Program-made: the position numbers and the translations under genes
Shown here: piece after piece, positions 51 to 57,894 of the stretch
Numbering within the stretch: position 1 is the first letter of the stretch
Layout of the letters: each line of letters starts with the position of its first letter
The notes under the pieces: model-generated
The model's database searches: none
What the model was told of the DNA's origin: nothing
What the model saw: the letters and a program-made list of their open reading frames with translations, nothing else
Source: Saprospiraceae bacterium
Lineage (GTDB): Bacteria; Bacteroidota; Bacteroidia; Chitinophagales; Saprospiraceae
Assembly: GCA_020630435.1 (NCBI GenBank)
Contig: JAHDBJ010000002.1
Coordinates: 1 to 64,000 of the forward strand
DNA: 64,000 nt
Direction of reading: 5' to 3'

Positions 51-3000
51 TTATGACGTGGCAGCTAGAGCTAGTGTAAAGGTTGTTCCTTCATTAAGCT
101 GGCTATCTACACTAATTTTTCCACCATTAAGTTTTACTAATTCGTGTACCAAGTGTAAACCTAAGCCTGTGCCTTTTTCGCCAGCAGTTCCCATTTTGCT
201 TTTATTTTTCTTTAATTCAAATAAAGAGTTTAATTTTTCTTTTGGTATACCTGTTCCTGAATCAGATACCATAATGTGTATATTCCCATTTTCTTTTTGT
301 GCTGAAATAGTGACATTACCATCTTTGTCAGTATATTTTAGAGCATTGTCGACAAGATTTCTAAGAACTGTCAAAAAGCCATTTCTATCTACCCAAACTT
401 TGAGATCATTTTGAATATCCAATTCAAGATCAATTTTTTTATCTATTGCTATTTGTGAAAAGAGAATGTTTACTTCTTCTATTGCAGGTTTTATAGATAC
501 ATATTCAGGATTATGTGGTAAAGCATTTTTTTGAGTAAGTGCCCAATTCAGTAGATTATCAACTAGTTTGTTCAGAGCAAAGGCATTTTTTTCAATATTT
601 TCTCCAATTAAGGTAACGGTATCATAGTCTTTTCTTTTAAGAAGGTAATTTACTTTTTTAGCTATTCCTCTAAAAGCAATTGCAGGCTTTCTCAAGTCGT
701 GACCTAAAATTGCAAAAATTCTATCTTTAGTATGGTTTAGTTCTTGTAGCTGTTGTGTTCGTTCTTCAACGACTTGTTCTAGATTTTCATACACTCTTGA
801 ATTATTAATCGATATTGCCATTTGGGAAGAAAGTAGTTCGAGAACTTGAATCCTATCATTTGTAAATGCACCTATAGATAAATTATTCTCAAGGTAGATA
901 ATACCATAAAGTTCGTTTAATAACACAATTGGAATGCATAGAATTGATTTATTTTTAAATTTTTTAATATAAGGATCGGTTGTGAATTCCCCTTCTTTAG
1001 AGGCATTATCTAAAACAATAGGTTCTTTTAGTCTTGCTACATAATTTATAATGCTAGTAGGTAGGGAATCAAGATTGGTTAAGGATAAATTAGTTAATGT
1101 TTCGATTTTTTCTTCAATAGCTTTTGCTTGAATAATGAATTTATCATTTTGAACAATTAAGAGCATACCTTTTTCTGCTCCAGCGGTCATCATAGTAATT
1201 CGCATCATCTTTTCTAATAATGCTTTAAACTCAATCTCTCCCGAAATTGCTTGATATGCTTTTACCAATGCCAATACATCCAGATTTTGAAAAGAACCTG
1301 TTTTAGTAGAGGAATAAGTCGTGGAGTTTAAAGTAGTAGTTCGAAAAGAGGGAGTAGTTTCTATTAGTGATTCTCTGGCTTTACTAATTACATTGGGGAA
1401 GTTAGCTTCTAAAACATCAATTTTAGCCATAGCTCCCCTTCTTTTATATAAATAGATGGCTTCTTTAAAATATGCAGTTGAAGACGTTAATATATTATTT
1501 CTATAATAAAACTTAGCAGCTAATTCACAGGCAAAAGCTTCATTATATAACCATTTATTTGTTTTAGCAGTCTGAATAGCTTGTTCATATAAACTAGCAG
1601 CTTCTTTAAATTTATTTTCAAGCGCAGCCCATTCAGCCTCCATTAATAATTGCCAATGAAGATAATTTTCTGGATTATGTGCTGCCCAAGTTTTCATTTT
1701 TTCTAACTCTTTACTCATTCGTTCTTTTAGCACATCTTTTGGAGGATTTTTACCATAGTTTAAATAACCAGCACAAGTAAAATAGGAAATATGACATAAG
1801 TATGTAAGGTAGATTAAACTGAACATCGCAGGCGCAAGAGGATCTGCTTGTTGTATTGTTTCCCAACTTTTTTCATAGTTGTCATTAGCCAAGTAAAGCT
1901 CAGCTTTTCTAACATGATAAAAACCTATTCCAGAATAAAAATTACGGGTGGCCATATTAGTTAAACATTCTACTTCGTCGAATTCTTCATCACTTAAAGA
2001 TTCTAAATTAGGAGAAATACCACTAAGCTTTTTATTGACTTGGAGGTTAAACATTGTAGTATCAATGGCATCTTGATATGCTGTATTGGTGACAATTTTT
2101 AGATATTTTCGCTGTTGTGTTATCATCTCTTCTAAATGCATTTCGGGTTCCCATCCAGCACAATATTTAGCACACCAAGCCAACATAAAACGATCCCCTG
2201 CTGCGTATCCTGCTTGAATTCCTTTTTTAAAAAAATCATGAAACTTACTCCAATGCATATTATGATGTCCAGTTACTACACCATAGGTAGCTATAGCACG
2301 ACACCTGTAAGCTACACTATTTAATTTTTCGATAATGTCTAATCCAAGTAATCCAAGAACATTAGCAGATTTCATATCACCAAAAAGATTACCTAACATA
2401 GCACCTATTGTAATACAGCCACTAGAGGATTCTGGACAAAGCCCTTTTTCTAATGTTAATCGAAATACTTCTAATGAAGTTAATGTATATAAATTAGCAT
2501 TTCCTAATACATAAGCACCGAGACCGCATTCTATTAGTAAGTTTGCAGCTAGTTTTTTTTCTGGTTCTGAAATTACAGGTCCATTTAAAATGGATTCTGG
2601 AGTACGAGCAAGATACATTTGATATAATTCTTGTAATGTTGCTCCTATTTGAGCATCATCTGGATTTTCTGGAATTTCGTATCCTAGTAGTGCTAATGCT
2701 TCTAGCCCTTTTCGTAAGCCTAAATCGGGTTCATATGTAACATAATGTTTGGCAGACATTGAAATAATTCTAGCTTTATCATATTTATTCTGAGCTTCTT
2801 TTATTAATTCTAATCTGCATTTTTCAGCATATTCAAAATCATGGGTTAGATAACAACTTCGAGCTAGACCAAACGCTAGTGAAAAAGCAAGTGTATAATT
2901 ATTTTGCCAGTAGTTTTTTGGCAATAGGTCTAATCCTGTTTGGTAATAATTTCTAGCGACTTTATAAGCAATAGAAGTCTCTGCTTTTTTAGCGGCTTCA

Positions 3001-5240
3001 AGGTTTAAGTTAGCTAATTCAAGAATTTCTTTTTCTGTTGTTAAAAAACTTCTACCATTGTTTAAATGTCGTACAAGCTCTATTAGATCTGCTTTTTGAT
3101 CTTCAGTATGATAATGTTTTTTTAAAATAGTCCCAATCTTAAAATGGCGTTTTGCTCTTTGTTTTTCATTCCCTAAAAAATAGGCAGATTGCTGAATTTT
3201 ATCGTGAACAAATTGATAGACTACACCAAAATCTTCATCATCATGTACAATTCTATATAAATTGTTGAGAGGATAAATGATTTCTTTTTCTATAGCAGAA
3301 TATAATTGGTTGGCTATAAAAGAAGCAGATTTATTCGTAATGATAGCTAAGGTTCTTAGTTCAAAGTGTTCGCCTATTGTTGCAGCTAGTTGTAGAAGAT
3401 TTTGAGATTCTTGAGGGAGTTCTTTCAACTGTTGAATCATAAACTCCACAACATTTTTAGAAATCTTAAGTGTTTTAATTTTTGTAATATCCCATTGCCA
3501 TTTTTGTGTATTAATATCAAAAGAGATTAAACCATTATGATAAATTTTTTTTAATAACTCGTTAATATAAAAAGGATTACCAGCGGTATTTTTATATAAT
3601 ATTGAAGTAAGTTCTTTAACGTTTTCTAAATTATCATTGAAGGTGTCAGCAAGCATTTGGTTGACGGCGGTTTCTGGGAGAGGATTTAAATTGGCTTCAT
3701 AAATAGCTTTTTTATTTTTTATATCGTCAATTGCAAGTGTCAATGGATGTCCTTCATTAACTTCATTATCACGATAAGCTCCAATTATTAATAAGTAAGG
3801 TATTTCTTTTAGTATTAGCTCTTTAATTAAGTGAAGGGAGGAATCATCAGACCATTGTAGATCGTCAATGAATATAGTTAGTGGATGTTCTTCTTTAGCA
3901 AAGACCTCGATAAATTTGATAAGTGCGTAGAAGAAGCGATTTTGGGCTTCTGTTGGATTTAAACTTACAAGGGTGTCTTGTTCCTCTAAAATGGTTTTTA
4001 ATTCAGGGACTTGTTCTAATAATAATGCAGCGTTGAGTCCTAGAGTATTTCCTAACTCTTGCTTGATGTTTTTTACTTTTTCTGATGCTTCTCCTGCTAA
4101 ATATCGTACTAAACCTTTAAAAGCTTCTGTAAAAGCATAAAAAGGCATATCTGTTTTAAATTGATCAAATTTGCCCGATATAAAATATCCATTTTTACTA
4201 ACGATTGGTTTATGTATTTCTTTTACGAGAGCTGTTTTGCCAATACCTGCGGAACCATTGATTAAAAATAAGTTGCTTTTTCCCCTTTCGGTACTAGCAA
4301 AAGCATTCATTAAAGCTTTGATCTCTTGTGTTCTACCGTAAAGATTTTGAGGAATTTGAAAACGATGGTTTATATCTTTCTTCCCAATTTCAAACAAAGG
4401 AATAGTTTCTGTGGTTTCAAGATAATTGTAACACTTTTCGAGATCATGCTTTAGCCCTGAGGCACTTTGATACCTTTCGTCAGCAGTTTTAGAACATAGT
4501 TTTAAAATTATATTAGATAAGACTTTAGGAATTGCCCTATTAACCAAAGTAGGAGGACTCATCTTACCTGCTATATGATAATGAACAATCTCCATAGGAT
4601 CATTGGTTTGGAAAGGATGGTTTCCTGTAAGTGCCTCATAAAAACTAATGCCGAGTGAATAAAGATCTGAACGATAATCAATAGATCGATTCACCCTTCC
4701 TGTTTGCTCAGGAGACATATAAGGAAGCGTGCCTTCCATTACATTTGGATTATGAAGAGCAGCTCTTTCGGTAGATAGTTTTGTAGAAATCCCAAAGTCT
4801 GAAATCTTAATCTCATTGGTTTGGCGATTGATTAAAATATTACTAGGATTAATATCCTTATGTATAATATTAGCAGCGTGGATCTCTGTTAGTATTTCTG
4901 TTATTGTTATTGCTTTTTGAAGAAAATCTTTTAGGTTAAGTTGATGATCTTTGAGGTAACTAGAAAAGGATTGCCCCCCAAAATCTTCCAAGATGATGAC
5001 AGGTTTATTTTTATCATCAATTAAACCTATAGCTTTATAGACACCTGAGCTATTTAAGCTCGAAATAATATCATATTCTCTCTTAATCTGTGCTATTTCG
5101 GCTATCTCTGGATAGTCATTTTGCAAAGTTTTAAGAATAACTTTTTTATTATTAATATTATCAAAAGCTCTATATACAATAGTGTATTTTCCTTGATGTA
5201 AGGTTTCTTTAATAGAGTAGTTGGATATTGCGTTTTTCAT
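51..5240 (-). CDS. Trifunctional Ser/Thr protein kinase / AAA ATPase / sensor histidine kinase
   Basis: Very large (1729 residues) cytoplasmic signalling protein. An N-terminal Ser/Thr kinase domain (about 8-270) has the catalytic Lys37 in VILK, HKD at 127-129, Asn134 and DFG at 148-150, so it looks active, although the glycine loop is poor. An AAA-type ATPase follows, with a P-loop GSAGIGKT at 329-336 and an acidic Walker B (FIDDLQWSD). A long helical TPR-like region (about 700-1250) leads to a GAF domain (about 1335-1480) and a C-terminal histidine kinase with H-box LGHDLRKP (His1514), N-box and two glycine boxes (DSGTGIP, GTGLGL). No membrane segments are seen. The architecture matches the known trifunctional kinase family of cyanobacteria and Bacteroidota, which resembles HstK-type proteins. 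No response regulator is adjacent in the window, so the output is unknown. The signal sensed by the GAF domain is also unknown. Confidence 0.93.
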   Translation of the reverse strand: MKNAISNYSIKETLHQGKYTIVYRAFDNINNKKVILKTLQNDYPEIAEIAQIKREYDIISSLNSSGVYKAIGLIDDKNKPVIILEDFGGQSFSSYLKDHQLNLKDFLQKAITITEILTEIHAANIIHKDINPSNILINRQTNEIKISDFGISTKLSTERAALHNPNVMEGTLPYMSPEQTGRVNRSIDYRSDLYSLGISFYEALTGNHPFQTNDPMEIVHYHIAGKMSPPTLVNRAIPKVLSNIILKLCSKTADERYQSASGLKHDLEKCYNYLETTETIPLFEIGKKDINHRFQIPQNLYGRTQEIKALMNAFASTERGKSNLFLINGSAGIGKTALVKEIHKPIVSKNGYFISGKFDQFKTDMPFYAFTEAFKGLVRYLAGEASEKVKNIKQELGNTLGLNAALLLEQVPELKTILEEQDTLVSLNPTEAQNRFFYALIKFIEVFAKEEHPLTIFIDDLQWSDDSSLHLIKELILKEIPYLLIIGAYRDNEVNEGHPLTLAIDDIKNKKAIYEANLNPLPETAVNQMLADTFNDNLENVKELTSILYKNTAGNPFYINELLKKIYHNGLISFDINTQKWQWDITKIKTLKISKNVVEFMIQQLKELPQESQNLLQLAATIGEHFELRTLAIITNKSASFIANQLYSAIEKEIIYPLNNLYRIVHDDEDFGVVYQFVHDKIQQSAYFLGNEKQRAKRHFKIGTILKKHYHTEDQKADLIELVRHLNNGRSFLTTEKEILELANLNLEAAKKAETSIAYKVARNYYQTGLDLLPKNYWQNNYTLAFSLAFGLARSCYLTHDFEYAEKCRLELIKEAQNKYDKARIISMSAKHYVTYEPDLGLRKGLEALALLGYEIPENPDDAQIGATLQELYQMYLARTPESILNGPVISEPEKKLAANLLIECGLGAYVLGNANLYTLTSLEVFRLTLEKGLCPESSSGCITIGAMLGNLFGDMKSANVLGLLGLDIIEKLNSVAYRCRAIATYGVVTGHHNMHWSKFHDFFKKGIQAGYAAGDRFMLAWCAKYCAGWEPEMHLEEMITQQRKYLKIVTNTAYQDAIDTTMFNLQVNKKLSGISPNLESLSDEEFDEVECLTNMATRNFYSGIGFYHVRKAELYLANDNYEKSWETIQQADPLAPAMFSLIYLTYLCHISYFTCAGYLNYGKNPPKDVLKERMSKELEKMKTWAAHNPENYLHWQLLMEAEWAALENKFKEAASLYEQAIQTAKTNKWLYNEAFACELAAKFYYRNNILTSSTAYFKEAIYLYKRRGAMAKIDVLEANFPNVISKARESLIETTPSFRTTTLNSTTYSSTKTGSFQNLDVLALVKAYQAISGEIEFKALLEKMMRITMMTAGAEKGMLLIVQNDKFIIQAKAIEEKIETLTNLSLTNLDSLPTSIINYVARLKEPIVLDNASKEGEFTTDPYIKKFKNKSILCIPIVLLNELYGIIYLENNLSIGAFTNDRIQVLELLSSQMAISINNSRVYENLEQVVEERTQQLQELNHTKDRIFAILGHDLRKPAIAFRGIAKKVNYLLKRKDYDTVTLIGENIEKNAFALNKLVDNLLNWALTQKNALPHNPEYVSIKPAIEEVNILFSQIAIDKKIDLELDIQNDLKVWVDRNGFLTVLRNLVDNALKYTDKDGNVTISAQKENGNIHIMVSDSGTGIPKEKLNSLFELKKNKSKMGTAGEKGTGLGLHLVHELVKLNGGKISVDSQLNEGTTFTLALAATS

Positions 5241-7984: not shown

Positions 7985-9808
7985 TTATTCTACGGGTAAT
8001 CGGAAACTACCTGATATTTGTACTTGTTCGATGGTTTCTCCTGTAGTAGGATTCATATTGGAGACAGTCCCTTCAAAGGAACCGGCTTTTAAGTCATCAT
8101 TACAGGTTGTAAAATTAATAGTGACATTATCTCCATTATTGCTATTAGATGTTAAATTGAGTAAAATATTATTATTAGTCGCATCTTCAGAACTATATTC
8201 AAAATGATCTAGACTATAATTTACATTTTCTTCAAATGGAGTATTTGTTTCTAATATCAAAATAATTGTATAGATTAAAGAATCAGAACTTACGTGGTAT
8301 CCCCCTATAAAACCACCAGTTGCTAAAAGACTATCAATATAAATCTGTTCCTTAACAAAAAGTACTTGTTCTTGCCCTTCGATATCTAGCAAAATATACT
8401 CAGAAAGTTCTTCACAAGTTGTAATCTCTCCGAGCTCTGTATTTGTCGATGCACCAGAAATAGTAATAGGGCTAGATGTAAGTTGATTGTCTAAATCAAC
8501 TACCGTTAATACAGGTTCTGCCCCTTCACAAAGATCCAAACTGATGTCAAAACTACCATCCTCCTCTAATGAGAAAGTTCTTGATTTATTCGAAAACGCA
8601 ATTTTTAAATAACCATTACTGACTGTATTCCCGTCGCAATCTACTACATTACCACTTACTGTAATGATATCCATATTGGTAGAGTTAACAGCAATTGTTC
8701 CTAGATCAGTATCGGTACTATAAGGACCATAAGTTTCTTGATAAATGGTTGTACCACATTCATCCACTATTTTTAGATCAAAAACCTCGTCCTTTGGAAA
8801 GTTATAAAATAAAAAACTTCCTTCTTCATCCAACCAGCCGCCTTTCTGTCCAAATTTTTGTCCACAAACATATACTGCCATATAAGAAGGCTGGGTCGTT
8901 TTGTTGCCCACATCAATCGTTACTTGCCCTTTAATTTCAATAGGATCGGTCATACAATCTACGTTCCAACTACTAAAGTGAGAAACATTACCAGTATAAA
9001 CACCATTGGCATAAGTGGCTTCTCCTTCTTGCATCCATGTGCCTTGTTCTTCATCATAGCTCCAAAGCGGGATTATGGTAGGCGCTTTGGATTGAAGAGA
9101 AGTAGGAACAGGAAAGACTAATGTAGATTCGGCACCTTCTGCTAGATTTAACTCATTACCACTAGCATCTAATAATTCGATTTGTAGCATTCCAAACGTA
9201 CCTAGTGTAACTGTTTCACCATCACTATTGATTCCACTAAGATCACCAACCATTTGTTGTGGGAGATCGTCTGCACTAGGATCGATCCAAGTCATAGCAA
9301 CATCTACTGTTCCACTATAGGCGTTACCGTTTGCATCTACAATACCCTGAGCAGGAAGAGAGATTTTAGCTCCAGAATTGTGGTTTAGTGTTCCTCCATT
9401 AGTACTATTAACTTGACCTAAGATTTGTTTGGTCTTCATCTTAATTTCTGTAAAATTAGCTTTATTCTCTATAACGGATAATCGTCTAAATGCTTCAAAT
9501 TTTCCGACCTGTTGCACCGATAAGAAAGCTGATTTTCCTTTGTTTCGGATATTCGAAAAATCAAAATTCCCATCTGCATCAGTTGTTGCCATTTCTAGTT
9601 GTTCACCCGATTTAAAGTGTACCATTGCCCCTTCAATAGCTTGATTATTTTCATCAATTACTCGACCTCTAACAGTTGTAGTGATCGTAATCTGTGGTTC
9701 TGGATTAGGAGGGGTGATTATGGTTGTACCATCATCTTCGCAAGCAAAGAAGGTTAGCATTAATGCTAGGATTAAAAAAAGTTGAATCTTCAATTTTGGA
9801 TTCTTCAT
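7985..9808 (-). CDS. Surface lipoprotein, carboxypeptidase-regulatory plus CILP/FAM171-like domains (paralog 1)
   Basis: 607 residues. The signal peptide ends in a lipobox TFFAC with Cys23, followed by acidic EDD, which is compatible with Bacteroidota surface export. Residues about 40-110 form a carboxypeptidase-regulatory-like beta-sandwich (VRGRVIDENNQAIEGAMV). Residues about 130-290 carry the fingerprint of CILP/FAM171-type domains: GAKISLPAQGIVD, an MVGDLSGIN motif, LGTFGMLQIELLD, then IPLWSYDEEQGTW and VSHFSSWNVD. Further Ig-like segments and a C-terminal module ending in SGSFRLPV follow. Two full paralogs at 14821-16638 and 16674-18479 share the whole architecture, and a relative with leucine-rich repeats is at 55753-57894. 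A 159-bp palindromic element begins 19 bp upstream of the start codon. The ligand and role are unknown; a structural or adhesive surface role is inference. Confidence 0.85.
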   Translation of the reverse strand: MKNPKLKIQLFLILALMLTFFACEDDGTTIITPPNPEPQITITTTVRGRVIDENNQAIEGAMVHFKSGEQLEMATTDADGNFDFSNIRNKGKSAFLSVQQVGKFEAFRRLSVIENKANFTEIKMKTKQILGQVNSTNGGTLNHNSGAKISLPAQGIVDANGNAYSGTVDVAMTWIDPSADDLPQQMVGDLSGINSDGETVTLGTFGMLQIELLDASGNELNLAEGAESTLVFPVPTSLQSKAPTIIPLWSYDEEQGTWMQEGEATYANGVYTGNVSHFSSWNVDCMTDPIEIKGQVTIDVGNKTTQPSYMAVYVCGQKFGQKGGWLDEEGSFLFYNFPKDEVFDLKIVDECGTTIYQETYGPYSTDTDLGTIAVNSTNMDIITVSGNVVDCDGNTVSNGYLKIAFSNKSRTFSLEEDGSFDISLDLCEGAEPVLTVVDLDNQLTSSPITISGASTNTELGEITTCEELSEYILLDIEGQEQVLFVKEQIYIDSLLATGGFIGGYHVSSDSLIYTIILILETNTPFEENVNYSLDHFEYSSEDATNNNILLNLTSNSNNGDNVTINFTTCNDDLKAGSFEGTVSNMNPTTGETIEQVQISGSFRLPVE

Positions 9809-10458: not shown

Positions 10459-12051
10459 TTATTTTATAATATTTATTTTATGACTAATTTTTGTTCCATT
10501 AACGTTCATTACTAGGATATACATACCTGTTTGAAGATTGTCCACATTAATATTATAATAATGGATGCCTTTTTCACGATACTCGTCTATGACAATGTCC
10601 TTAACTTTTCTTGCTGTTATATCAAAAAGTTGAAGATCTATATTTCCACTTGTGTTTAAATTTATTTTTACAGTTGCATTTTCTGTAACTGGATTAGGAT
10701 AAGTAGATATATTAGGTTGTACATTTATGTCATCTTGTTGTTTAGTTGCTAATCTATCAGCAAAAGAATTTGTAATCGCAAATGCTTCACTTTCGTCACG
10801 GATTTGAGATGGATTGACAACGCTGGCAATAATTAACCTATAATTATTACCGATAGGAGCGTTTTGAGGAACAACAAAAGTATAACTTCCATCACTTAAT
10901 GTAGGTTGTATTTGGTAAGTATATTCAATGAGCCCATTTGATTTTTTATATAAAATCATAAGAACATCTTCCTCGATATTATCTGTCCAATAGATATTAT
11001 AGGATTTTCCTTTTTCCCATTTTGTAAACGAATTAGGAACTGTTATATTAATAAATGGAGGTGTATTTTTAATTGTAAAATGGACACTCACAAAAACATC
11101 TAAAGGACAATCATGTTCATATATATTTATACGATAGCTACTTGAAAAAGGCAAGTTTGTGGGTAGAGTATATTCAAACACACCGTCATTTGGGGTGCTA
11201 CCAGCAATTGTAGAAACCAATCCGTCGGTTAGACTCCACAATTCGATTCGAACATTATTATTCGGATTTCCTCCTTCCCAATAAATATACTGAGTACTAC
11301 CTAAGCCCCATACATCAAGAAGAGAATATGGATTATTAATTTTAATAGGAGGAGCAATTTCAAACTTATCACTTATATCGGCATTATAAGTAGAACCATT
11401 GAGTTCTACTACAAGAACTTGGTAATCCTCTCCTAGGGGAATCGAACTCGGCAAAATGAGTTTAAAATTATTCTCATTCACTATTCCTTGTGCTAAGATA
11501 CTATGGAAATTCCCTCCTTTGTATAAAAGAATGACAACTTTATTAGTAGAGTAGCCTTCCCAACTAATATGTAATTGTCTAACAGATTGAGAGCCTGCAA
11601 ATAATTCTGTGTGAGCCTTTGTAGTTGATGTAGGACTAACAATTTTAAATATAGAAGATGGATTTTGAGGTGTTTTTATAGAAAAGAAATCACTATAATA
11701 TTTGGCATCACCAGAAATCGAAAATAAAAGCCGATAATCATTTCCAGAGATAAGTGTAGAAGGGACGACATAACCTGTGTATACGCCCATTTTATGCCTT
11801 GTGGAACCGACTGTGGTAATAAAAGTATTTCCTTTATATAAATCGATTTTAATGTTGTCACCATAGGATAAAAATAAACTGATTGAGCTTAATTCAACAT
11901 TAGAATCCCATATAATATCAACCTCACTACCTTTTGACCATATTGTTGAAGAATTGGGTTGATTAACAGTAAATGAAGAAGCACTAGCATTTACATTACT
12001 ATAAAAAATACTAGTTAAAAATAAGATAAAAATTAAGTTTGTTAACTTCAT
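10459..12051 (-). CDS. T9SS-secreted protein with Kre9/KNH-like repeat modules
   Basis: 530 residues with a signal peptide (residues 1-22, cleavage near NAS-AS). Four similar modules of about 100 residues follow, beginning near 27, 135, 235 and 335. Each has a W-x-x-G or equivalent near its start (IWSKGSEVDIIWDS, KWEKGKSYNIYWTD) and a late GNDYRLLF/GEDYQVLV/GNNYRLII strand motif. These resemble Kre9/KNH-type (GPI-anchored Ser-Thr-rich family) beta domains seen in many bacterial surface proteins. Residues about 450-530 form a type A T9SS sorting domain (YPNPVTENATVKI, then TGMYILVMNVNG). The protein should cross the outer membrane through T9SS and be released or anchored at the surface. It stands alone, with long gaps on both sides. 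Binding target unknown. Confidence 0.85.
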   Translation of the reverse strand: MKLTNLIFILFLTSIFYSNVNASASSFTVNQPNSSTIWSKGSEVDIIWDSNVELSSISLFLSYGDNIKIDLYKGNTFITTVGSTRHKMGVYTGYVVPSTLISGNDYRLLFSISGDAKYYSDFFSIKTPQNPSSIFKIVSPTSTTKAHTELFAGSQSVRQLHISWEGYSTNKVVILLYKGGNFHSILAQGIVNENNFKLILPSSIPLGEDYQVLVVELNGSTYNADISDKFEIAPPIKINNPYSLLDVWGLGSTQYIYWEGGNPNNNVRIELWSLTDGLVSTIAGSTPNDGVFEYTLPTNLPFSSSYRINIYEHDCPLDVFVSVHFTIKNTPPFINITVPNSFTKWEKGKSYNIYWTDNIEEDVLMILYKKSNGLIEYTYQIQPTLSDGSYTFVVPQNAPIGNNYRLIIASVVNPSQIRDESEAFAITNSFADRLATKQQDDINVQPNISTYPNPVTENATVKINLNTSGNIDLQLFDITARKVKDIVIDEYREKGIHYYNINVDNLQTGMYILVMNVNGTKISHKINIIK

Positions 12052-12643: not shown

Positions 12644-14242
12644 CTAAAAACGATAATTTATTCCAGCTCTAATATTCAAGAAGTTGTAATTAAGATTTAC
12701 ATTTGTGGACTTTTGTAAGTAAGATTGTCTATTTACTCTATAGTTAGGATTTAAATAGATTTCCCAATGTTTATTGACTAAATATCCCATGTGTAACCCA
12801 GTTGAGAAACTAAGCCCCACATTGGTACTCATAAATGCTTCTGTATTTTGTTCATTTATAAGAATTACATGATTATCCTTTTGTAAAAGATAACCATCAT
12901 ACTGTTTAGAAATATTCGCAAGTATTTCAACATTTATACCAACTCTATATTTGTCGTTATATGTATTGATATAACCTAGTTGGATTGGGATGTGCCAAAG
13001 TTTATGATTATTCGCTAAGGTATGCGTTTGGTTTTTAATCGTGATTTGAGTAATGGAATCCGCAAACCATAAAATCGAACCATTTATGTTGGAATAATAT
13101 GCCTGATCGCTCCAAATTCTATTTTCTTCAATCAGAGAATTCTTTTTAAAATGTTTAGTTTGAAAATGCTGATAGGCAATTCCTGTTGAGAGATAACCAT
13201 TCCACGAAAATTGATAACCTATTTGAATTCCGCCTCCATGCGATAAAAAAGGCTCGAACTGCTCTTTCCAATTATGGGCATAATTGGATTCAGGTTCGGA
13301 GATACTGATGGATTCAAAAGGAAGGGAGGTTTCTCCATAGAGCTTAACAAAAAATCCTTTTTTTGAGATAGGAGGAATTAATACTTTAGGATTTGGTTTT
13401 TGTAATTCTGGAAAAAATGTAAAATCTAGACTTCTAATAGGAGTGAGATTAGAAGTTATAGGGGCGGGGGTATTTTTTGTAGAAGGATATTTAATTTTAG
13501 TATTTGCTTCCTTTTTTTGATTAATATCTTCAAGTTTTTTGTTATTGATAATAGTATTTTTCGGGATAGTGTTTAATGAATTTTTAATAAAAGTGTTGTT
13601 CTCTTTTGTTGTTGATTTTACAAGATTATTTGGATTAAAAGGTTTAGAATAATCAACGTTATCTTTAAGCTCTTTTCTTTTTATCAAATTTGATTTAAAG
13701 GTAATTTTTGAACTATTCCTAATAGGTTCAATACCTTGATTAGAAAAGGTGTTTTTAGTGTAATTACGGGTTCGAACATCATTTTTTAGCAAATGATTGG
13801 TGTTGGGATTCTTTTTCTTAAGAGCTGTCTTTGTTGATGATTGCTTATTTTTCGTTTTACTACTAGAAGTTTTATTTAAATTATTTTGTGTTATAATTGT
13901 ATTTTCTTTTGTTTTTGAACTGGTATTATTTCTTTCGTTAGAAAGCTTATGATTTAAAATTTTTGTAGTATCGAATGAACTATTCTTAAGATGTGATTCA
14001 GATCTTATGGTGTTCGTGTTTGAGAATTGAAGATAAATGAAAATGGAAATAAAAAATAAGACAAAAGGAAGTAACCACCTCCATAGAAAGAAAGGGTTTC
14101 GCCTACCGTTGTTAGACTTATTGATATTATCCCACAAAAGCTCAGAATCTTCCATAGAAATCTCAACATTGTGAAAATGTTGTTTATATTGTTCGTCGAT
14201 ATGATGCTTATTTGATTCTTGCATATGGTTCATTTTTATCAA
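12644..14242 (-). CDS. Dual-membrane-spanning anti-sigma-like protein with outer-membrane barrel
   Basis: 532 residues with a three-compartment layout. Residues 1-50 are polar and carry a SELLWDNI helix typical of Bacteroidota anti-sigma heads. One hydrophobic helix (about 53-72, LLPFVLFFISIFIYLQF) is preceded by NGRRN, which puts the head in the cytoplasm. Residues about 75-320 are a low-complexity Asn/Lys/Thr-rich linker long enough to cross the periplasm. The C-terminal 200 residues look like an outer-membrane beta-barrel: alternating strands (GGGIQIGYQFSWNGYLSTGI, a WEIYLNPNYRV motif) and a terminal NYRF. The gene overlaps the ECF sigma gene by 35 bp (later in-frame ATGs at 14233 and 14224 would shorten this). 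Topology and coupling match the dual membrane-spanning anti-sigma (Dma) proteins reported from Bacteroides. Function here is inference. A plain OmpA/PorT-like barrel protein is the alternative, but the internal TM helix and sigma overlap argue against it. Confidence 0.75.
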   Translation of the reverse strand: MIKMNHMQESNKHHIDEQYKQHFHNVEISMEDSELLWDNINKSNNGRRNPFFLWRWLLPFVLFFISIFIYLQFSNTNTIRSESHLKNSSFDTTKILNHKLSNERNNTSSKTKENTIITQNNLNKTSSSKTKNKQSSTKTALKKKNPNTNHLLKNDVRTRNYTKNTFSNQGIEPIRNSSKITFKSNLIKRKELKDNVDYSKPFNPNNLVKSTTKENNTFIKNSLNTIPKNTIINNKKLEDINQKKEANTKIKYPSTKNTPAPITSNLTPIRSLDFTFFPELQKPNPKVLIPPISKKGFFVKLYGETSLPFESISISEPESNYAHNWKEQFEPFLSHGGGIQIGYQFSWNGYLSTGIAYQHFQTKHFKKNSLIEENRIWSDQAYYSNINGSILWFADSITQITIKNQTHTLANNHKLWHIPIQLGYINTYNDKYRVGINVEILANISKQYDGYLLQKDNHVILINEQNTEAFMSTNVGLSFSTGLHMGYLVNKHWEIYLNPNYRVNRQSYLQKSTNVNLNYNFLNIRAGINYRF

Positions 14243-14657
14243 TGATAGAAGCTAATCTTTTTCTTGCTCTTGTTAATAAAGAACGTGAGCTGCTTTCTAC
14301 AATTTGTAACTTTTGTGCAATTTCTTTGTGACTGTATCCTTCAATGGCATACATATTAAATACGACACGTTGATTTTCTGGTAATTTTAATAGATGGTGG
14401 AATAAATCATCTTCAAAAAGAGGATGACTTGCTGTAATAGTATCAGAACTTATAGTGTTATCACCTTGAGTCCAGCGTTTTTGTCGTTTAAGCCAACGAA
14501 TAGCTTCTCTAGCTGTAATTTGTCTCATCCACGCTAGTGTAGCATTATCATGTTGGTATTCGAAAGTATCTATTTTTTGAAAGATTCTAATATAGCTTTC
14601 TTGTAGGATATCTTTTGCAGTATCTCTATCAATAACATACCTTATCGCAACAGTCAT
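14208..14657 (-). CDS. ECF-type RNA polymerase sigma factor (start uncertain)
   Basis: From ATG 14657 the product has 149 residues. Region 2 is recognisable from RDTAKDILQESYIRIFQKI through LAWMRQITAREAIRWLKRQ, and region 4 from LPENQRVVFNMYAIEGYSHK through EIAQKL to SSRSLLTRARKRL (helix-turn-helix). The sequence in frame upstream of this ATG also reads as sigma region 2 (IKGGNKTAQKQLFSITVNHL), and the frame stays open to a stop at 14790-14792. No ATG, GTG or TTG exists in those 44 codons, so the true start may be a non-standard codon such as ATA, or the first helix is lost. It is co-encoded with and overlaps the anti-sigma-like gene. It probably directs envelope-related genes, but no target promoter motif could be derived. 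Confidence 0.85.
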   Translation of the reverse strand: MTVAIRYVIDRDTAKDILQESYIRIFQKIDTFEYQHDNATLAWMRQITAREAIRWLKRQKRWTQGDNTISSDTITASHPLFEDDLFHHLLKLPENQRVVFNMYAIEGYSHKEIAQKLQIVESSSRSLLTRARKRLASIIDKNEPYARIK

Positions 14658-14820
14658 AAGATGATTAACTGTTATGCTAAATAACTGTTTTTGGGCTGTT
14701 TTATTACCACCCTTTATGGCTGATATGACAGGTGCTAACTTATTTATAGCAAATAATATTTTAGATGTTATTGAATAGTTGTATTCCGTTTAAAAATTAT
14801 ACAAAAGACATTGTTTGTTT

Positions 14821-16638
14821 TTAGTCTATAGATATATAGAATTTCCCAAAGATTTGAACTTTCTTATGAGAATAAGAACAGGTAGCAACTCCAGAAAATG
14901 TTCCTTCAACCTCTCCTCCTGTTGTGGTTAAATCATATGTTGAAAATCGAATATTCATACTATCATCTTCAGCCAGATTCAATGTGAATCGGACATCTGT
15001 TGTGCTTTGAGAACTGCGAACATAATCGATTCGATCTATCGGGTAATCAGTATTTTCTTGAATATCTTTTGGGAAAAAGATTGTAAATGCATCTATAATA
15101 GGATTCGTAAAAGATAAGTAGGAAATTCTGTTATGATCTTGCCGCTTTTTAAAAAGAACGTCTTTTTGATAAATGATATTAAAATCACCTTCTATTTCGG
15201 GGAAATCGCCTTTTAAAGTCATTGAGATATAGTTTGTCAACACTTCACATATTATTACTTGACCAAGCTCAATATTCGGTTTGGTGCTAGAAATCGTGAC
15301 AGGATTGGAAGTCAATTGATTGTCTAAATTGGTAACAGTTAGTTCAGGCATTGAATTTTCACATAGTTCTAAGTTGAAATTAAAACTGCCATCTTCTTCT
15401 AAGGGGAAAGTATACGTTTTATTAGGAAAGGTAATGGTAACAAAACCATTATTAACACTATTATCATCACAGTCTACTGTATTACCATTAATTGTTATTA
15501 TATTGGTATAATTAGAATCAATTACAATATTTCCTAAGTCAGTATTATTTGCACCATAAGTTTGTTGATAAATGGTACTACCACACTCATCGACTATCCT
15601 TAAATCAAAAATTTCATTCTTAGGAAAATTGTAGAAAAAGAAACTCCCATCTTCATTCAACCACCCACCATTAAGTCCAAATTGTTGGGTAGAAGCATAA
15701 ATAGCAAGATGTGAGGGTTGAATTATTGTTGTTCCAAAGTCAATACTAACATTTCCGATGAGTTCTTTAGGAATTGTTGCACGGCTAATATTCCAGTTAC
15801 TAATATGACTAATATTTCCTGTATAAGTACCATTAGAGTAGATTGCTTCCCCTTCTTGAAGCCACATACCTTGCTCTTCATCATAGCTCCAAAGGGGAAT
15901 AGTATTAGTCGCTATATTTTGTAAAGAAGTTGGGACAGGAAATACTAATGTAGATTCGATATCTTCCGCTAGGTTTAATTGATTCCCATTACTGTCTAAT
16001 AATTCGATTTGTAGTATTCCAAAAGTTCCTAGAGATACGATTTCTTGTGCATTATTTTTACCGCTTAGATCCCCTACAATTTGTTGAGGAAGTTCATCTA
16101 CATTAGGAGCTATCCAAGTCATTGCTATATCTATAATTCCAGTATAAAAAGAACCATTGACATCAACAACACTACTAGGAGGAAGGGAAATTTTAGCACC
16201 AGAGCTATGGTTTACAGTGCCACCACTATTTGAATTAATTTGGCCTATAATTTGCTTGTCGAACATTCTTATTTTTGTGAAACTTACCTTATTTTCTAAT
16301 ACAGATAAACGTCTGAAGGCTTCAAATTTCCCAACTTTTTGTATAGTTAAAAAAGCTGATTTACCTTTATTATGAACATTAGAAAAATGAAAAGCTCCAT
16401 TTTCATCAGTCGTTGATGTTTTTAGCTGTTCACCAGATTTATAAGTAACAATCGCCCCTTCAATCGCTTGATTAAGTTCATCAAGAACATGCCCTTTTAC
16501 AGTAGTCGTAATCGTAATTTGAGACTCTTCTGAAGGAGAGGGAGTGAAAAGCCCTGTTCCTTCTTCTTCACAGGCAAAAAATATTAAGATTAATATTAAA
16601 AAGATACTCTGTTGTGTTTTGATTTTTAAATGCGACAT
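14821..16638 (-). CDS. Surface lipoprotein, CILP/FAM171-like (paralog 2)
   Basis: 605 residues. The lipobox IFFAC gives Cys23, followed by EEE. The order of parts equals paralog 1: carboxypeptidase-regulatory domain (VKGHVLDELNQAIEGAIV), GAKISLPPSSVVD, IVGDLSGKN, LGTFGILQIELLD, IPLWSYDEEQGMW, ISHISNWN, Ig-like parts, and a C-terminal module ending FGKFYISID. The N-terminal 300 residues are close to paralogs 1 and 3, while the last 120 differ most. It starts 35 bp downstream of the stop of paralog 3 (16674-18479), so the two form an operon. The ECF sigma gene begins 163 bp further on. Function unknown. Confidence 0.85.
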   Translation of the reverse strand: MSHLKIKTQQSIFLILILIFFACEEEGTGLFTPSPSEESQITITTTVKGHVLDELNQAIEGAIVTYKSGEQLKTSTTDENGAFHFSNVHNKGKSAFLTIQKVGKFEAFRRLSVLENKVSFTKIRMFDKQIIGQINSNSGGTVNHSSGAKISLPPSSVVDVNGSFYTGIIDIAMTWIAPNVDELPQQIVGDLSGKNNAQEIVSLGTFGILQIELLDSNGNQLNLAEDIESTLVFPVPTSLQNIATNTIPLWSYDEEQGMWLQEGEAIYSNGTYTGNISHISNWNISRATIPKELIGNVSIDFGTTIIQPSHLAIYASTQQFGLNGGWLNEDGSFFFYNFPKNEIFDLRIVDECGSTIYQQTYGANNTDLGNIVIDSNYTNIITINGNTVDCDDNSVNNGFVTITFPNKTYTFPLEEDGSFNFNLELCENSMPELTVTNLDNQLTSNPVTISSTKPNIELGQVIICEVLTNYISMTLKGDFPEIEGDFNIIYQKDVLFKKRQDHNRISYLSFTNPIIDAFTIFFPKDIQENTDYPIDRIDYVRSSQSTTDVRFTLNLAEDDSMNIRFSTYDLTTTGGEVEGTFSGVATCSYSHKKVQIFGKFYISID

Positions 16639-16673: not shown

Positions 16674-18479
16674 TTATAGATGAGGAATTATAAAATTACC
16701 AGATACATTAACCTTTTCTACAACTTGACCAGATACCATTTTAGAAGCTGTACCCTCAAAAGTGCCAGCCCAGATTATATTTTTAGCTGAAAAATTGATG
16801 TGAATAGTATCAGTAGAGTCTAAATTAATGATCTCAAAATCAGTTTCTCCTGCTACATTGAAACCATAATAGAAACTAGGTATTAAATAATCGACATTTT
16901 CTTCTGTCATAGCATTACCAAGATTTAAGACTAGAGTATATACTAAAGAATTAAGTATTTTATTATTATTTATATCATAGGAAGGAGGTGAAGACAATGG
17001 AGAAAGTATATTCGTTTCATCATCTATAAAAGTAACTTCTTCACTTCCGTTTATGTTTAAAGTAAAGAAGTCTATTAAATCATTACAGGTTAATACATAT
17101 TCTAGATCAACCCAATTATCTGTTGAGGGGACTATTTCATTAGTATTAGATACTTGTTGGTTATCTAAATCAGTTACAATTAGTTCAATATTGTCAGTTT
17201 GACAAACACTAAATGAGATATTAAATGTTCCATCAGATTCTAATGAGAATTTGTGAATTCCATTCATTAAATGGATAGTGATGTATCCATTCTTTACAGG
17301 TGTCCCATCACAGCTAATCGCAGTGCCACGAATAGATGCAAGATTAGCTTCGGGAGCATATACATTGATAAGACCTAGATCTGTATCTGAATTATACGGA
17401 CCAAATGTTTGCTGATAAATGATTTCGTCGCATTCGTCTATAATTTTCAAATCAAATACCTCGTCTTTAGGAAAATTGTAAAATAAAAAATGCCCTTCTT
17501 CATTTAGCCAGCCTCCGATTTGACTAAACTTTTCTCCAGTAGTATGGATTTCTAAATAGGAAGGTGTAATAACTCTACTACCCATATTTATACTTACTCT
17601 TCCTTTTAATTCTATTGGTTCTACGATAGAATTAACACTCCAATTATTGAAATGAGAAATTTTTCCAGCATAAGTACCATTTTCATATACAGCTTCACCT
17701 TCTTGAATCCAAGTCCCTAGAGTTTTATTATAACTCGATAAAGGAATCACTCGTGGAGCTTCACTTTGAAGAGCAATAGGGACTGGGAATACCAATGTAC
17801 ATTCGGTGTCCTCGGCTAGATTTAGCTCATTGCCACTAGCATCGAGTAATTCGACTTGCAACATTCCAAATGTATTTAATGCTACGCTTTCACTATTATT
17901 ATTTATACCACTAAAATCGCCAATCATTTGTTGAGATAGATCTGTTGCTGTTGGATCTACCCATGCCATAGCAATATTAATTAGACCATTATAGGGCGTT
18001 CCATTAGAATTAATAATGCCTCTAGCTGGAATCCAAATACTTGCACCAGTAACATCCTCTATAAGACCACCAGTATTACTATTAACTTGACCAATAATAT
18101 TCTTTGTCTTCATCCTAATTTCAGTATAATTAGATTGATTCTCTATTACAGATAATCTCCTATAGGCTTCAAATTTGTCTGCTTTTTCTACTGATATATA
18201 TGCAGAATTTCCCTTATTATTGACATCGATAAACTCAAAACAACCATTCTCATCTGTTATAATCAAAGCATTTTGTTCCCCTGATCTATATTTTACGATA
18301 GCTTCTGAAATTGGGTTCATATTTTCATCTATTACAATTCCACGAACACTTACTGAAATTATTTCTTGTGGTTGGGGCGTAATGATAGTAGTATCTTCGA
18401 TAATGTCCTCTTTTACACAACTTGAACAAAAGAAAATAAGTATAATAGTAATCCCCAAATAACTTCTTAAAGTGAACAT
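16674..18479 (-). CDS. Surface lipoprotein, CILP/FAM171-like (paralog 3)
   Basis: 601 residues, signal peptide with FFCSSC (Cys21 the likely lipidated residue), then VKED. The body follows the other paralogs: VRGIVIDENMNPISEAIV, GASIWIPARGIIN, MIGDFSGIN, LNTFGMLQVELLD, IPLSSYNKTLGTW, ISHFNNWSVN, and a C-terminal module ending in VSGNFIIPHL. The normally conserved Trp in IPLW is Ser here (IPLSSY). First gene of a two-gene operon with paralog 2. A 156-bp palindromic element starts 19 bp upstream of its start codon, the same arrangement as at paralog 1. Confidence 0.85.
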   Translation of the reverse strand: MFTLRSYLGITIILIFFCSSCVKEDIIEDTTIITPQPQEIISVSVRGIVIDENMNPISEAIVKYRSGEQNALIITDENGCFEFIDVNNKGNSAYISVEKADKFEAYRRLSVIENQSNYTEIRMKTKNIIGQVNSNTGGLIEDVTGASIWIPARGIINSNGTPYNGLINIAMAWVDPTATDLSQQMIGDFSGINNNSESVALNTFGMLQVELLDASGNELNLAEDTECTLVFPVPIALQSEAPRVIPLSSYNKTLGTWIQEGEAVYENGTYAGKISHFNNWSVNSIVEPIELKGRVSINMGSRVITPSYLEIHTTGEKFSQIGGWLNEEGHFLFYNFPKDEVFDLKIIDECDEIIYQQTFGPYNSDTDLGLINVYAPEANLASIRGTAISCDGTPVKNGYITIHLMNGIHKFSLESDGTFNISFSVCQTDNIELIVTDLDNQQVSNTNEIVPSTDNWVDLEYVLTCNDLIDFFTLNINGSEEVTFIDDETNILSPLSSPPSYDINNNKILNSLVYTLVLNLGNAMTEENVDYLIPSFYYGFNVAGETDFEIINLDSTDTIHINFSAKNIIWAGTFEGTASKMVSGQVVEKVNVSGNFIIPHL

Positions 18480-18654: not shown

Positions 18655-19002
18655 TATTTATGTATTTCAAAAAAATATTTTGAAATTGTAAATTTTGACA
18701 ATAAGATGCAATGTTTGAGCTTTCAATTTTACTTTATTAAACCTTATGAGTTGAAAAACGCTGCAATTAATCTTATTTTTTTTAAAAAATATTTATACTG
18801 AATTTTCAGTAAGGTGAAAATTGTGATATTTAGTTTTTAGATTACGGTTTGATGTGAACACCGTAAAGCTAATTATTACAATGCTTTGAACTTCTTTCTA
18901 GTATTTATTTTTTCTTAGCTTTCCAACAGTACAGATTAGGTTATTTGTCTTCCATATTTTTTCCTTAAATTAGCGATTCATTAGTATAGTTTAACAAATC
19001 GT
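18655..19002. other. Intergenic with several short hairpins
   Basis: 348 bp between palindromic element 2 and the helicase gene. Perfect short inverted repeats are at 18664-18686 (atttcaaaa...ttttgaaat), 18796-18811 (tactgaattttcagta) and 18842-18866 (ttacggt...accgtaa). No coding sequence was recognised. The plus-strand helicase promoter must lie here, but only weak TATAGTTTA-like sequence near 18985 is seen. Confidence 0.4.
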
Positions 19003-55752: not shown

Positions 55753-57894
55753 TTAAAAAGTGAGCGTAGCATCAGGAAGACAGCTTCTGACTAAATCAAT
55801 ATCGGATTGATCTAATGGATTATTACTTAAGTTTAATTCTGTATCATAAGTTTTTCCAGAGGTGTCCCAAGAGCAGAACACAAAAACCTCACTAATATTA
55901 TTATCTTTTAAATTGAGTACATCTATTTCTTGAAGTCCTATCAGAGGTGAAATATCCTCTATATTGTTGTTATTTAATATGAGATAGTCAATATTTTCAA
56001 GCTTTTTAAAAGCACTAATATCGCTAATGTTATTATGATTAAGATATAGATTAGGTAATGTAGAGTAACCTGAAAATATGCTAATATCGCTAATGTTATT
56101 ATGGCTTAAATCCATTACTGGAAGGTATGGCATGTCCGCTAAGAAGCTAATATCCGTGATTTCATTATAACTTAGTTCGAGGTAATCTAAATATTTTAAA
56201 TTCCTTAAAGGACTAGAATCTGTAATAGAATTTTTATAAAAAGAAAGAAGAACTAAGTGTTCAAAATATTCAATCCCAGATATATCTGTTATAGATAGTT
56301 CAGATAAAACTAATTCATAGATATACCTTACATCTTCATAGACTATTGTTCCAGTAGGTTTATTGATGGCGTCTCTTACCCCTTGTTCAAAATTGCTATC
56401 AACAAAAGGAATAGGAAAATTATGGGGTATGGTATCTGGAACTTCTTCTTCTTCAATATTGCAATAGTTAATATCTAAAGTTTGACTATTCCCTTGAAAT
56501 ATAATTGAAAGGATACTATCCTTTAATTCAGTATTGGATAAAAATAAAGAAGCTGTTAAATTATAGGATGTTGTTTCATCAACACTACAAAGAGTCGTAC
56601 TGATTTGGAAGTTTCCAGTCTCATCTGTAACTCCTGCAAAGGCTAATTCATTAGGATTATTAACTTCATTGATGGTAAAATAGGTATTGTTATAAAATGT
56701 TTCAGTACCATCTTCTTGGCAGTCTGAAAATTGTCCTTCTAAGATGTAGGTTCTAAGTTGAATATTAGAGAAATCTGCGCTTACTGTAAGTTCTCCACTA
56801 CTAATATTAACAGGGATTTCTATACGTTCACAGTTAAGGATTTTTATTTTAAATGCTAAATTCTCAGGGACGCTGACTAATCTGAATTTACCGTTGTCAT
56901 CCGTAAATATTGTATTTAAAAAACGATTTTCGCTACTGTAAATTTCAACTGCTTGGTTACTAATGGGATTTCCGTTTTGGTCTACTAATGTAATGTTTGC
57001 ATTGACCCCATCTATGGGAAGGTCCAAATTCCATGTTGAAAAATGAGTCACATTTCCTATATAATGGTCGGCTGTTTTTGTAGCGATTCCAGCTTCTACC
57101 CATACACCATATGTTTCGTTAAAATGCCAAAGTGGTATAGTCGAAGGAGCATTATCTTCGGCAGGAAGTTTAATTTGTACCTGTTGATTTTTAGCAATTT
57201 CTAGAGGATTACCTGAGTCATCTGTCAGTTCCACATTCAACATACCGTAAGAAATTAAGGCTTGGAGTTGATTGTCTTCATTAAGTCCAACCAATGTACC
57301 AGGCATAATTTGGCTTAGGTTTTCTGCAGTAGGGGATAAATAACGTCCTTGAACATTGACATTATCTGTATAAGGTTCACCATTTTCTGTAATGATTATA
57401 TTTTCGGGAAAATTGAGTGCCACTTCATTATCAATAATTAACGTTCCACCACTGCTAGCCAGAAAATTTTTAGCTGCAGGTTTTTCCAAAAGCTGAATGC
57501 TAATCGTATTTATGGCATCAAGAGTAGGAGCAAAAGTGCGAAATCCTGTAAAATAACCTTGTTTGTTGGCTTTAATTAAGGCATATTGCTCATTCACAGT
57601 TATATTTCCAAATAAAAAACGTCCATTGACATCTGTTATGGTGGATGTATCATCATAAATTACAGTTACCCCTTCTAAAGGATTACCATGCTCATCTTGG
57701 ATGCTACCTTTAAGAAAGGTAGAAATTTCATTTGTAGGGATAACGGTCGATAAGGCTTGGTTCTCAGTCTGAATAATATCATTTTTAGTTAGAGGTTCAG
57801 GTTGTTCAGGGACAGGTACAGGGATATTTTCTTGACAAGCAGATACTAGACATACAAATATAAAGATTATCAATCTTGCATTGAGGGCTTTCAT
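55753..57894 (-). CDS. CILP/FAM171-like lipoprotein with C-terminal leucine-rich repeats
   Basis: 713 residues, lipobox LVSAC (Cys20). The N-terminal half matches the lipoprotein family at 8-18 kb: carboxypeptidase-regulatory domain (LKGSIQDEHGNPLEGVTV), GGTLIIDNEVALNFPEN, MPGTLVGLNEDN, ISYGMLNVELTD, IPLWHFNETYGVWVEAG and VTHFSTWNLD. Additional Ig-like units follow. The C-terminal 210 residues differ: six or so short leucine-rich repeats of about 22 residues with the internalin-like pattern L-x-L-x-x-N-x-I-x-D-I-S-x-L (LDYLELSYNEITDISFLADM, LPNLYLNHNNISDISAFKKL), capped by LSNNPLDQSDIDLVRSCLP. Surface-exposed binding protein is the likely role; partner unknown. Confidence 0.88.
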   Translation of the reverse strand: MKALNARLIIFIFVCLVSACQENIPVPVPEQPEPLTKNDIIQTENQALSTVIPTNEISTFLKGSIQDEHGNPLEGVTVIYDDTSTITDVNGRFLFGNITVNEQYALIKANKQGYFTGFRTFAPTLDAINTISIQLLEKPAAKNFLASSGGTLIIDNEVALNFPENIIITENGEPYTDNVNVQGRYLSPTAENLSQIMPGTLVGLNEDNQLQALISYGMLNVELTDDSGNPLEIAKNQQVQIKLPAEDNAPSTIPLWHFNETYGVWVEAGIATKTADHYIGNVTHFSTWNLDLPIDGVNANITLVDQNGNPISNQAVEIYSSENRFLNTIFTDDNGKFRLVSVPENLAFKIKILNCERIEIPVNISSGELTVSADFSNIQLRTYILEGQFSDCQEDGTETFYNNTYFTINEVNNPNELAFAGVTDETGNFQISTTLCSVDETTSYNLTASLFLSNTELKDSILSIIFQGNSQTLDINYCNIEEEEVPDTIPHNFPIPFVDSNFEQGVRDAINKPTGTIVYEDVRYIYELVLSELSITDISGIEYFEHLVLLSFYKNSITDSSPLRNLKYLDYLELSYNEITDISFLADMPYLPVMDLSHNNISDISIFSGYSTLPNLYLNHNNISDISAFKKLENIDYLILNNNNIEDISPLIGLQEIDVLNLKDNNISEVFVFCSWDTSGKTYDTELNLSNNPLDQSDIDLVRSCLPDATLTF

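Follow-up and report, generated by a model that had tools for sequence, protein, structure and literature searches.

Gene organization of the locus

In this work, a 64,000-nt stretch of DNA from a Saprospiraceae bacterium (GCA_020630435.1, contig JAHDBJ010000002.1, positions 1-64,000 of the forward strand; hereafter the window) was analysed. A gene encoding an ECF sigma factor overlaps the gene of a putative Dma-type anti-sigma protein, and two tandem copies of a lipoprotein gene are located upstream of the sigma gene, with one further copy downstream (Table 1). The sigma factor matched the Pfam families Sigma70_r2 (E 3e-10) and Sigma70_r4_2 (E 8e-15). An earlier note on this DNA had described a 532-residue protein whose gene overlaps that of an ECF sigma factor. 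Both frames are present, the 532-codon open reading frame at 12644-14242 (reverse strand) and the ECF sigma frame, which is open over 14208-14789. With 532 codons the anti-sigma gene would begin at TTG 14242 and the overlap would be 35 bp. This start was revised to ATG 14224 (MQESN...) because the alignment with relatives suggests it, which shortens the overlap to 17 bp. Downstream of the anti-sigma gene, a gene at 10459-12051 (-) encodes Kre9/KNH-like Ig repeats followed by a type IX secretion sorting tail; the gap between the two genes is about 590 bases, and the gene may be part of the operon. At 51-5240 (-), the window also encodes a protein of 1729 aa with serine/threonine kinase, ATPase, sensor, and histidine kinase parts, as judged by eye.

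Table 1. Positions of the genes, protein segments, and promoter-like motif in the window.
Feature	Position	Strand	Remarks
Third lipoprotein, same family	7985-9808	(-)	downstream of the sigma/anti-sigma pair; 54% identity with lipoprotein A
Dma-type anti-sigma gene	12644-14224	(-)	526 aa from ATG 14224; alternative upstream starts ATG 14233 and TTG 14242
Outer-membrane barrel, 8-stranded (predicted)	12647-13366	(-)	residues 290-529
Disordered linker (predicted)	13367-14020	(-)	residues 72-289; N/K/T/S-rich, pLDDT <50
Inner-membrane helix (predicted)	14021-14092	(-)	residues 48-71; hydropathy and AlphaFold2 model
Cytoplasmic head (predicted)	14096-14224	(-)	contains Trp34 (529-aa form), which at least 90% of homologs share
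ECF sigma factor gene	14208-14747	(-)	start uncertain; frame open up to 14789
Lipoprotein A, surface-type	14821-16638	(-)	605 aa; lipobox followed by C-EEE; immediately upstream of the sigma gene
Lipoprotein B, surface-type	16674-18479	(-)	601 aa; C-VKED; the operon starts with this gene
Promoter-like motif TGCAGCGTTTTTCAACTCATAAGGTTTA	18738-18765	(-)	286 bases before lipoprotein B, at the operon head

Architecture and predicted structure of the anti-sigma protein

The anti-sigma protein had no Pfam match above the cut-off, and neither Pfam nor NCBIfam provided a name for it. In an AlphaFold2 model built with six homologs, the head contains two helices (residues 9-20 and 30-39) of low confidence, the linker comprises about 218 residues with pLDDT under 50 (residues 71-289), and the C-terminal part forms a barrel of eight strands (residues 293-529), mostly with pLDDT of 75-95 and with weaker loops. 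The best PDB match of the barrel in VIA-align was NspA (Z 18.1 over 153 residues, rmsd 2.6), and it was also superposed on OmpA and OmpW. Prediction of the full chain had been proposed in the earlier note as a check, and the model does contain a barrel. The architecture given in that note (anti-sigma-like head, one helix, disordered linker, and C-terminal barrel) was recovered as well, except that the linker is shorter than the roughly 250 residues it had reported. The 15 residues before the helix contain 5.2 K/R versus 1.4 after it, and the number before exceeds that after in 42 of 45 homologs. According to the positive-inside rule, the head is thus predicted to be cytoplasmic, which agrees with the expectation that the N-terminus is not exported. 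The linkers of Saprospiraceae homologs have 133-251 residues and are probably long enough to cross the periplasm.

Membership in the Dma/Reo kind

The Dma proteins were described as an N-terminal sigma-binding domain, a transmembrane helix, a disordered tether, and a C-terminal barrel, encoded beside an ECF21 sigma factor (PMC13088901). For the homology test, genomes with NigD (PF12667) were chosen and their family was searched with the Saprospiraceae profile; among 14 control genomes, NigD matches were found only in Bacteroides ihuae. The Bacteroidaceae matches consist of sigma genes with partners of approximately 361-445 residues and of single chains of approximately 500-570 residues that fuse an ECF sigma factor with a helix, a disordered linker, and a barrel, as published for Dma3. 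The Saprospiraceae barrel profile matched that of the Bacteroidaceae set (99.5%, E 2e-22) and that of the fused Dma3-type chains (98.4%, E 8e-15), and the profile of head and helix matched the Bacteroidaceae set at 97% (E 2e-11), or 96% for the head alone. The sigma domain of the Dma3-type fused chains is also homologous to the sigma factor of the window. Chains with the Dma3 layout were seen at the Bacteroidaceae loci L157, L161, L162, L165, L170, L171, and L179, the last being shorter when counted from its first ATG. In a tree of 114 sigma factors, a branch with support 100/99 separated every Dma-linked sigma from 12 other ECF sigma factors and from the second sigma of locus L128. One Bacteroidaceae locus (L216) encodes, in this order, a sigma factor, a 361-aa partner, a 181-aa lipoprotein, a 326-aa protein, and a 315-aa protein that we read as nitronate-monooxygenase-like. 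Since this is the gene order reported for BT_1559 to BT_1555, L216 can be regarded as a das2-dma2-like locus. By its domain order, profile homology, and common sigma clade, the pair in the window was filed with the Dma (Reo) proteins known from Bacteroides. The earlier note had already pointed to this match, and the sequence comparison supports it.

Occurrence in Saprospiraceae

Direct pattern and tblastn searches of genome contigs with the anti-sigma protein of the window gave no match, and an alignment was needed. A search with a single sequence matched 127 of 298 Saprospiraceae genomes, and the profile search found a Dma-type protein in all 31 sampled genera of the family. The occurrence in a different part of the phylum, which the earlier note had pointed out, is thus not rare, and the Dma proteins have already been called a Bacteroidota class in published work. 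An ECF sigma gene directly upstream and one transmembrane helix at approximately residues 40-78 were found at 37 of the 40 fetched homolog loci; the other three, without a visible pair, are short contigs. In a second set, the pair was seen at 20/20 loci. Such constant pairing is far beyond chance.

Linked surface-type lipoproteins

The lipoproteins of about 600 residues have a transthyretin-like N-terminal domain and a FAM171-like region and are all beta. In the fold search, the N-terminal domain was matched to the SusC NTE (9hfj, Z 11.2) and to carboxypeptidase D (5aq0, Z 11.7). This transthyretin-like domain is the only clear part of the fold. A distant relative with a leucine-rich-repeat-like C-terminus is encoded at 55753-57894 (-) in the window, with no sigma gene beside it. 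At the mature N-termini, which are mostly acidic, C-x-K-(D/E) is frequent and similar to K-(D/E)2, the surface export signal described in the literature.

At 21 of the 37 Saprospiraceae loci, the gene directly upstream of the sigma gene belongs to the 600-residue family; at six others, with one weak match among them, such a gene directly follows the anti-sigma gene. In the held-out set, it is present at 9 of 20 loci. The linkage, upstream or downstream of the pair, occurs in both large Saprospiraceae sigma subclades. The neighbouring lipoprotein is of another kind in two other families, one from the same order (approximately 320-412 residues) and a large one from the same class (approximately 135-420 residues), and in Bacteroidaceae it has 181 residues or is NigD-like. 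Lipobox lipoproteins account for 44 of the 68 same-strand genes adjacent to the pairs, as against 45 of 565 among the remaining genes of these loci (odds ratio 21, p 8e-26, a statistic that ignores common ancestry). Of the earlier note, the mention of surface lipoprotein genes nearby proved the most informative part.

The same sigma/anti-sigma pair could also work with the neighbouring lipoproteins as sensor parts that bind the barrel, and not only as output. RcsF with OmpA would be a loose parallel. The linkage in both subclades and the different lipoproteins found in the same place in other families would fit such a role, although co-regulation by itself accounts for the linkage. Moreover, expression of the dma2 operon, with BT_1557 and its neighbours, rises when dma2 is deleted (PMC13088901), and the NigD surface lipoproteins depend on EcfO (PMC9308784, PMC13114119). 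In the published relatives, the lipoproteins are thus regulon outputs, and the NigD genes need not be adjacent to the pair. A sensor role of the lipoproteins is rather unlikely, and we prefer to see them as output of the sigma factor.

Promoter-like motif

The motif at the head of the window operon has the form TGCAGCG-N17/18-TTTA. By unbiased counting of spaced words, CAGCG-N18-TTTA was found in 9 of 22 operon-head upstream regions, with shuffled maxima of 4-5 for words of equal length. The form TGCA(A/G)CG-N17/18-TTTA occurs at 10 of 41 Dma operons, where shuffles expect 0.01 and the reverse strand gave 0, and at 0 of 13 other ECF loci of the same genome. Because the pattern had been learned on these first data, 20 fresh loci were tested, and three of them carry the motif (expected 0.013). 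All three are among the loci with an upstream lipoprotein, and at one of the held-out loci (L226) the site falls at the assigned gene start. An independent search of the Bacteroidaceae operons gave CAGTA-N15-CATT in 6 of 13 (shuffled maximum 3); its full form, TGCAGTA ... CATTTA, is a close variant of the Saprospiraceae motif. For the fused Dma3-type genes, TGCAGT is located ahead of the start in five of the six upstream regions examined. In the large family of the same class, a de novo motif search gave nothing clearly above shuffles. At one Saprospiraceae operon (L074), a second TGCAGCG copy at 6622 (+) lies at the junction of the lipoprotein and sigma genes and is perhaps an internal promoter.

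Within the genome of the window, no TGCAGCG-type motif was seen before the third lipoprotein gene (7985-9808). Two paralog operons (L098 and L105) contain a lipoprotein gene and no motif, so the other paralogs probably use other promoters. The relaxed pattern has nine sites in the genome, six of them inside ORFs. The remaining three are at the window operon, before a trigger-factor-like gene (L193 1501-1556, C44:116129; a TGCAACG-type copy 55 bases ahead of the gene), and toward the end of a convergent gene. The last site (L198 5270, C46:57269) is the sole other copy of the tight form; it faces the 3' end of that gene and has no ORF just downstream. The tight form occurs only twice in the whole genome, with zero control matches. 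On the basis of these sites, we propose autoregulation of the window operon and put forward no regulon beyond it.

Start codon of the sigma gene

In the sigma gene of the window (14745-14820, reverse strand), region 2 is preceded by neither ATG nor GTG nor TTG. By alignment with relatives, the best candidate for its start is ATA 14747 (MNKLAPVISAIKGGN...). In the closest relative (L056), these standard codons are likewise missing, and translation would begin at CTG. Several other Saprospiraceae sigma factors of the same clade appear to begin with TTG or GTG, so weak starts may keep the sigma factor scarce. The odd start in the window may be such a weak start or a sequence error. Decay or truncation of the gene, which would leave the system dead or nearly so in this genome, could also explain why a frame that otherwise aligns well has none of these starts. 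We regard this as improbable, since the frame runs without a break through the two sigma regions and on into the overlapping part, L056 is a similar case, the start list of genetic code table 11 includes ATA and CTG, and the anti-sigma gene, the lipoprotein genes, and the promoter-like motif are all intact.

Related anti-sigma proteins in the same genome

The genome of the window contains 35 sigma-like stretches, and 20 of these loci were inspected. Seven partners of the same architecture were found beyond the window (L097, L098, L099, L101, L104, L105, and L107). Profile comparison showed a homologous barrel in six of them, with a weak match for L104 (E 0.0015), and left L101 uncertain, so that at least seven Dma-type barrel proteins are encoded in this genome. 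The same head without the Dma-type barrel occurs beside the sigma genes at L096, L100, L102, and L103, which means that the head behaves as a module. The partner at L096 (4259-5062 (+), contig C24) has 268 aa with two tandem heads, one helix, and no barrel. The protein at L103 (4391-6961 (+), contig C23) has 857 aa, with the same anti-sigma head and helix and a large non-barrel part resembling a macroglobulin-type and carboxypeptidase-regulatory-like region; it can be read as a different sensor on the same head. It is very improbable that the chain is an envelope tether or a porin co-transcribed with an unrelated sigma gene and that its small, weakly predicted head binds no sigma factor, because the same head is present in the barrel-less partners, the paired sigma factors always come from a single clade, and the heads of a family with genetic support for an anti-sigma role (PMC13088901) are homologs of this one.

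Proposed mechanism and significance

We hypothesize that the system in the window is an outer-membrane stress switch of the Dma/Reo type, and we consider this likely. It builds on the gene order, architecture, predicted fold, homology with the Bacteroidaceae Dma proteins, sigma clade, lipoprotein linkage, and motif observed here. The head would hold the ECF sigma factor at the cytoplasmic face of the inner membrane, and the chain would pass through one helix and the disordered linker to the barrel in the outer membrane. The need to insert its own barrel there would enable the chain to report the state of this membrane. Disturbed insertion of the barrel, or a disturbed outer membrane, would make the head release the sigma factor, and the freed sigma would transcribe its own operon from the TGCAGCG-type promoter. 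The two lipoproteins, presumably exposed on the surface, would then increase together with the sigma and anti-sigma proteins, closing the loop. The Reo anti-sigma was placed across all five compartments, and the EcfO-Reo pair is induced by outer-membrane-damaging toxins, including the BamA-binding Bd-A (PMC9308784, PMC13114119). Points against a stress switch are the low confidence of the head, the lack of a standard sigma start, the presence of the motif at only 10/41 and 3/20 loci, and its absence before the paralog operons of the same genome.

The Dma kind was already known. Added here are its conserved link with lipoproteins and a promoter-like motif, which are the parts worth following. 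The published work found on single chains from the outer membrane to transcription concerns a few gut Bacteroidales only, and the literature search found no paper joining Saprospiraceae with an anti-sigma factor and the outer membrane. Dma chains were present in every sampled Saprospiraceae genus, often several per genome, together with surface lipoproteins and the promoter-like sequence. This suggests that the production of surface lipoproteins is a common output of Dma systems, and the motif and the lipoprotein link would offer a way to read a Dma regulon from the sequence alone. A more tentative and somewhat doubtful idea is that, throughout the Bacteroidota, a Dma chain and a lineage-specific surface lipoprotein form an outer-membrane sensor-effector unit with a conserved TGCAG-type promoter. 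It would mean that the Dma unit is the general stress pathway of the phylum from the outer membrane to RNA polymerase, a functional counterpart of sigma-E or Rcs, and that the lipoproteins are its replaceable client or sensor parts.

Comparison with known systems

In FecI-FecR-FecA, an outer-membrane event likewise controls an ECF sigma factor. However, that system depends on a FecR-type anti-sigma together with a TonB-dependent receptor. No such receptor was recognised among the proteins neighbouring the pair, and the anti-sigma protein of the window gave no match to a FecR domain in Pfam/NCBIfam at E up to 1. In Bacteroides fragilis and Phocaeicola vulgatus, the EcfO-Reo system has an ECF sigma gene upstream of an anti-sigma that reaches an outer-membrane barrel, and its regulon includes surface lipoproteins (NigD) (PMC9308784, PMC13114119). 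The window lipoproteins come from another family, and their genes share the operon of the pair. In Dma3, the sigma factor and the barrel are fused, whereas the window has two overlapping genes for the sigma and anti-sigma proteins. Dma1/Das1 and Dma2/Das2 of B. thetaiotaomicron resemble the window in that a single chain with head, one helix, disordered tether, and barrel is encoded next to an ECF sigma gene, and a lipoprotein gene is also adjacent in the dma2-like locus L216. The differences are that the Saprospiraceae linkers are longer than those of the Bacteroidaceae Dma proteins (133-251 versus 56-137 residues), that the sigma and anti-sigma genes of the window are located behind genes of 600-residue lipoproteins, and that the single genome of the window has at least seven such barrel proteins.
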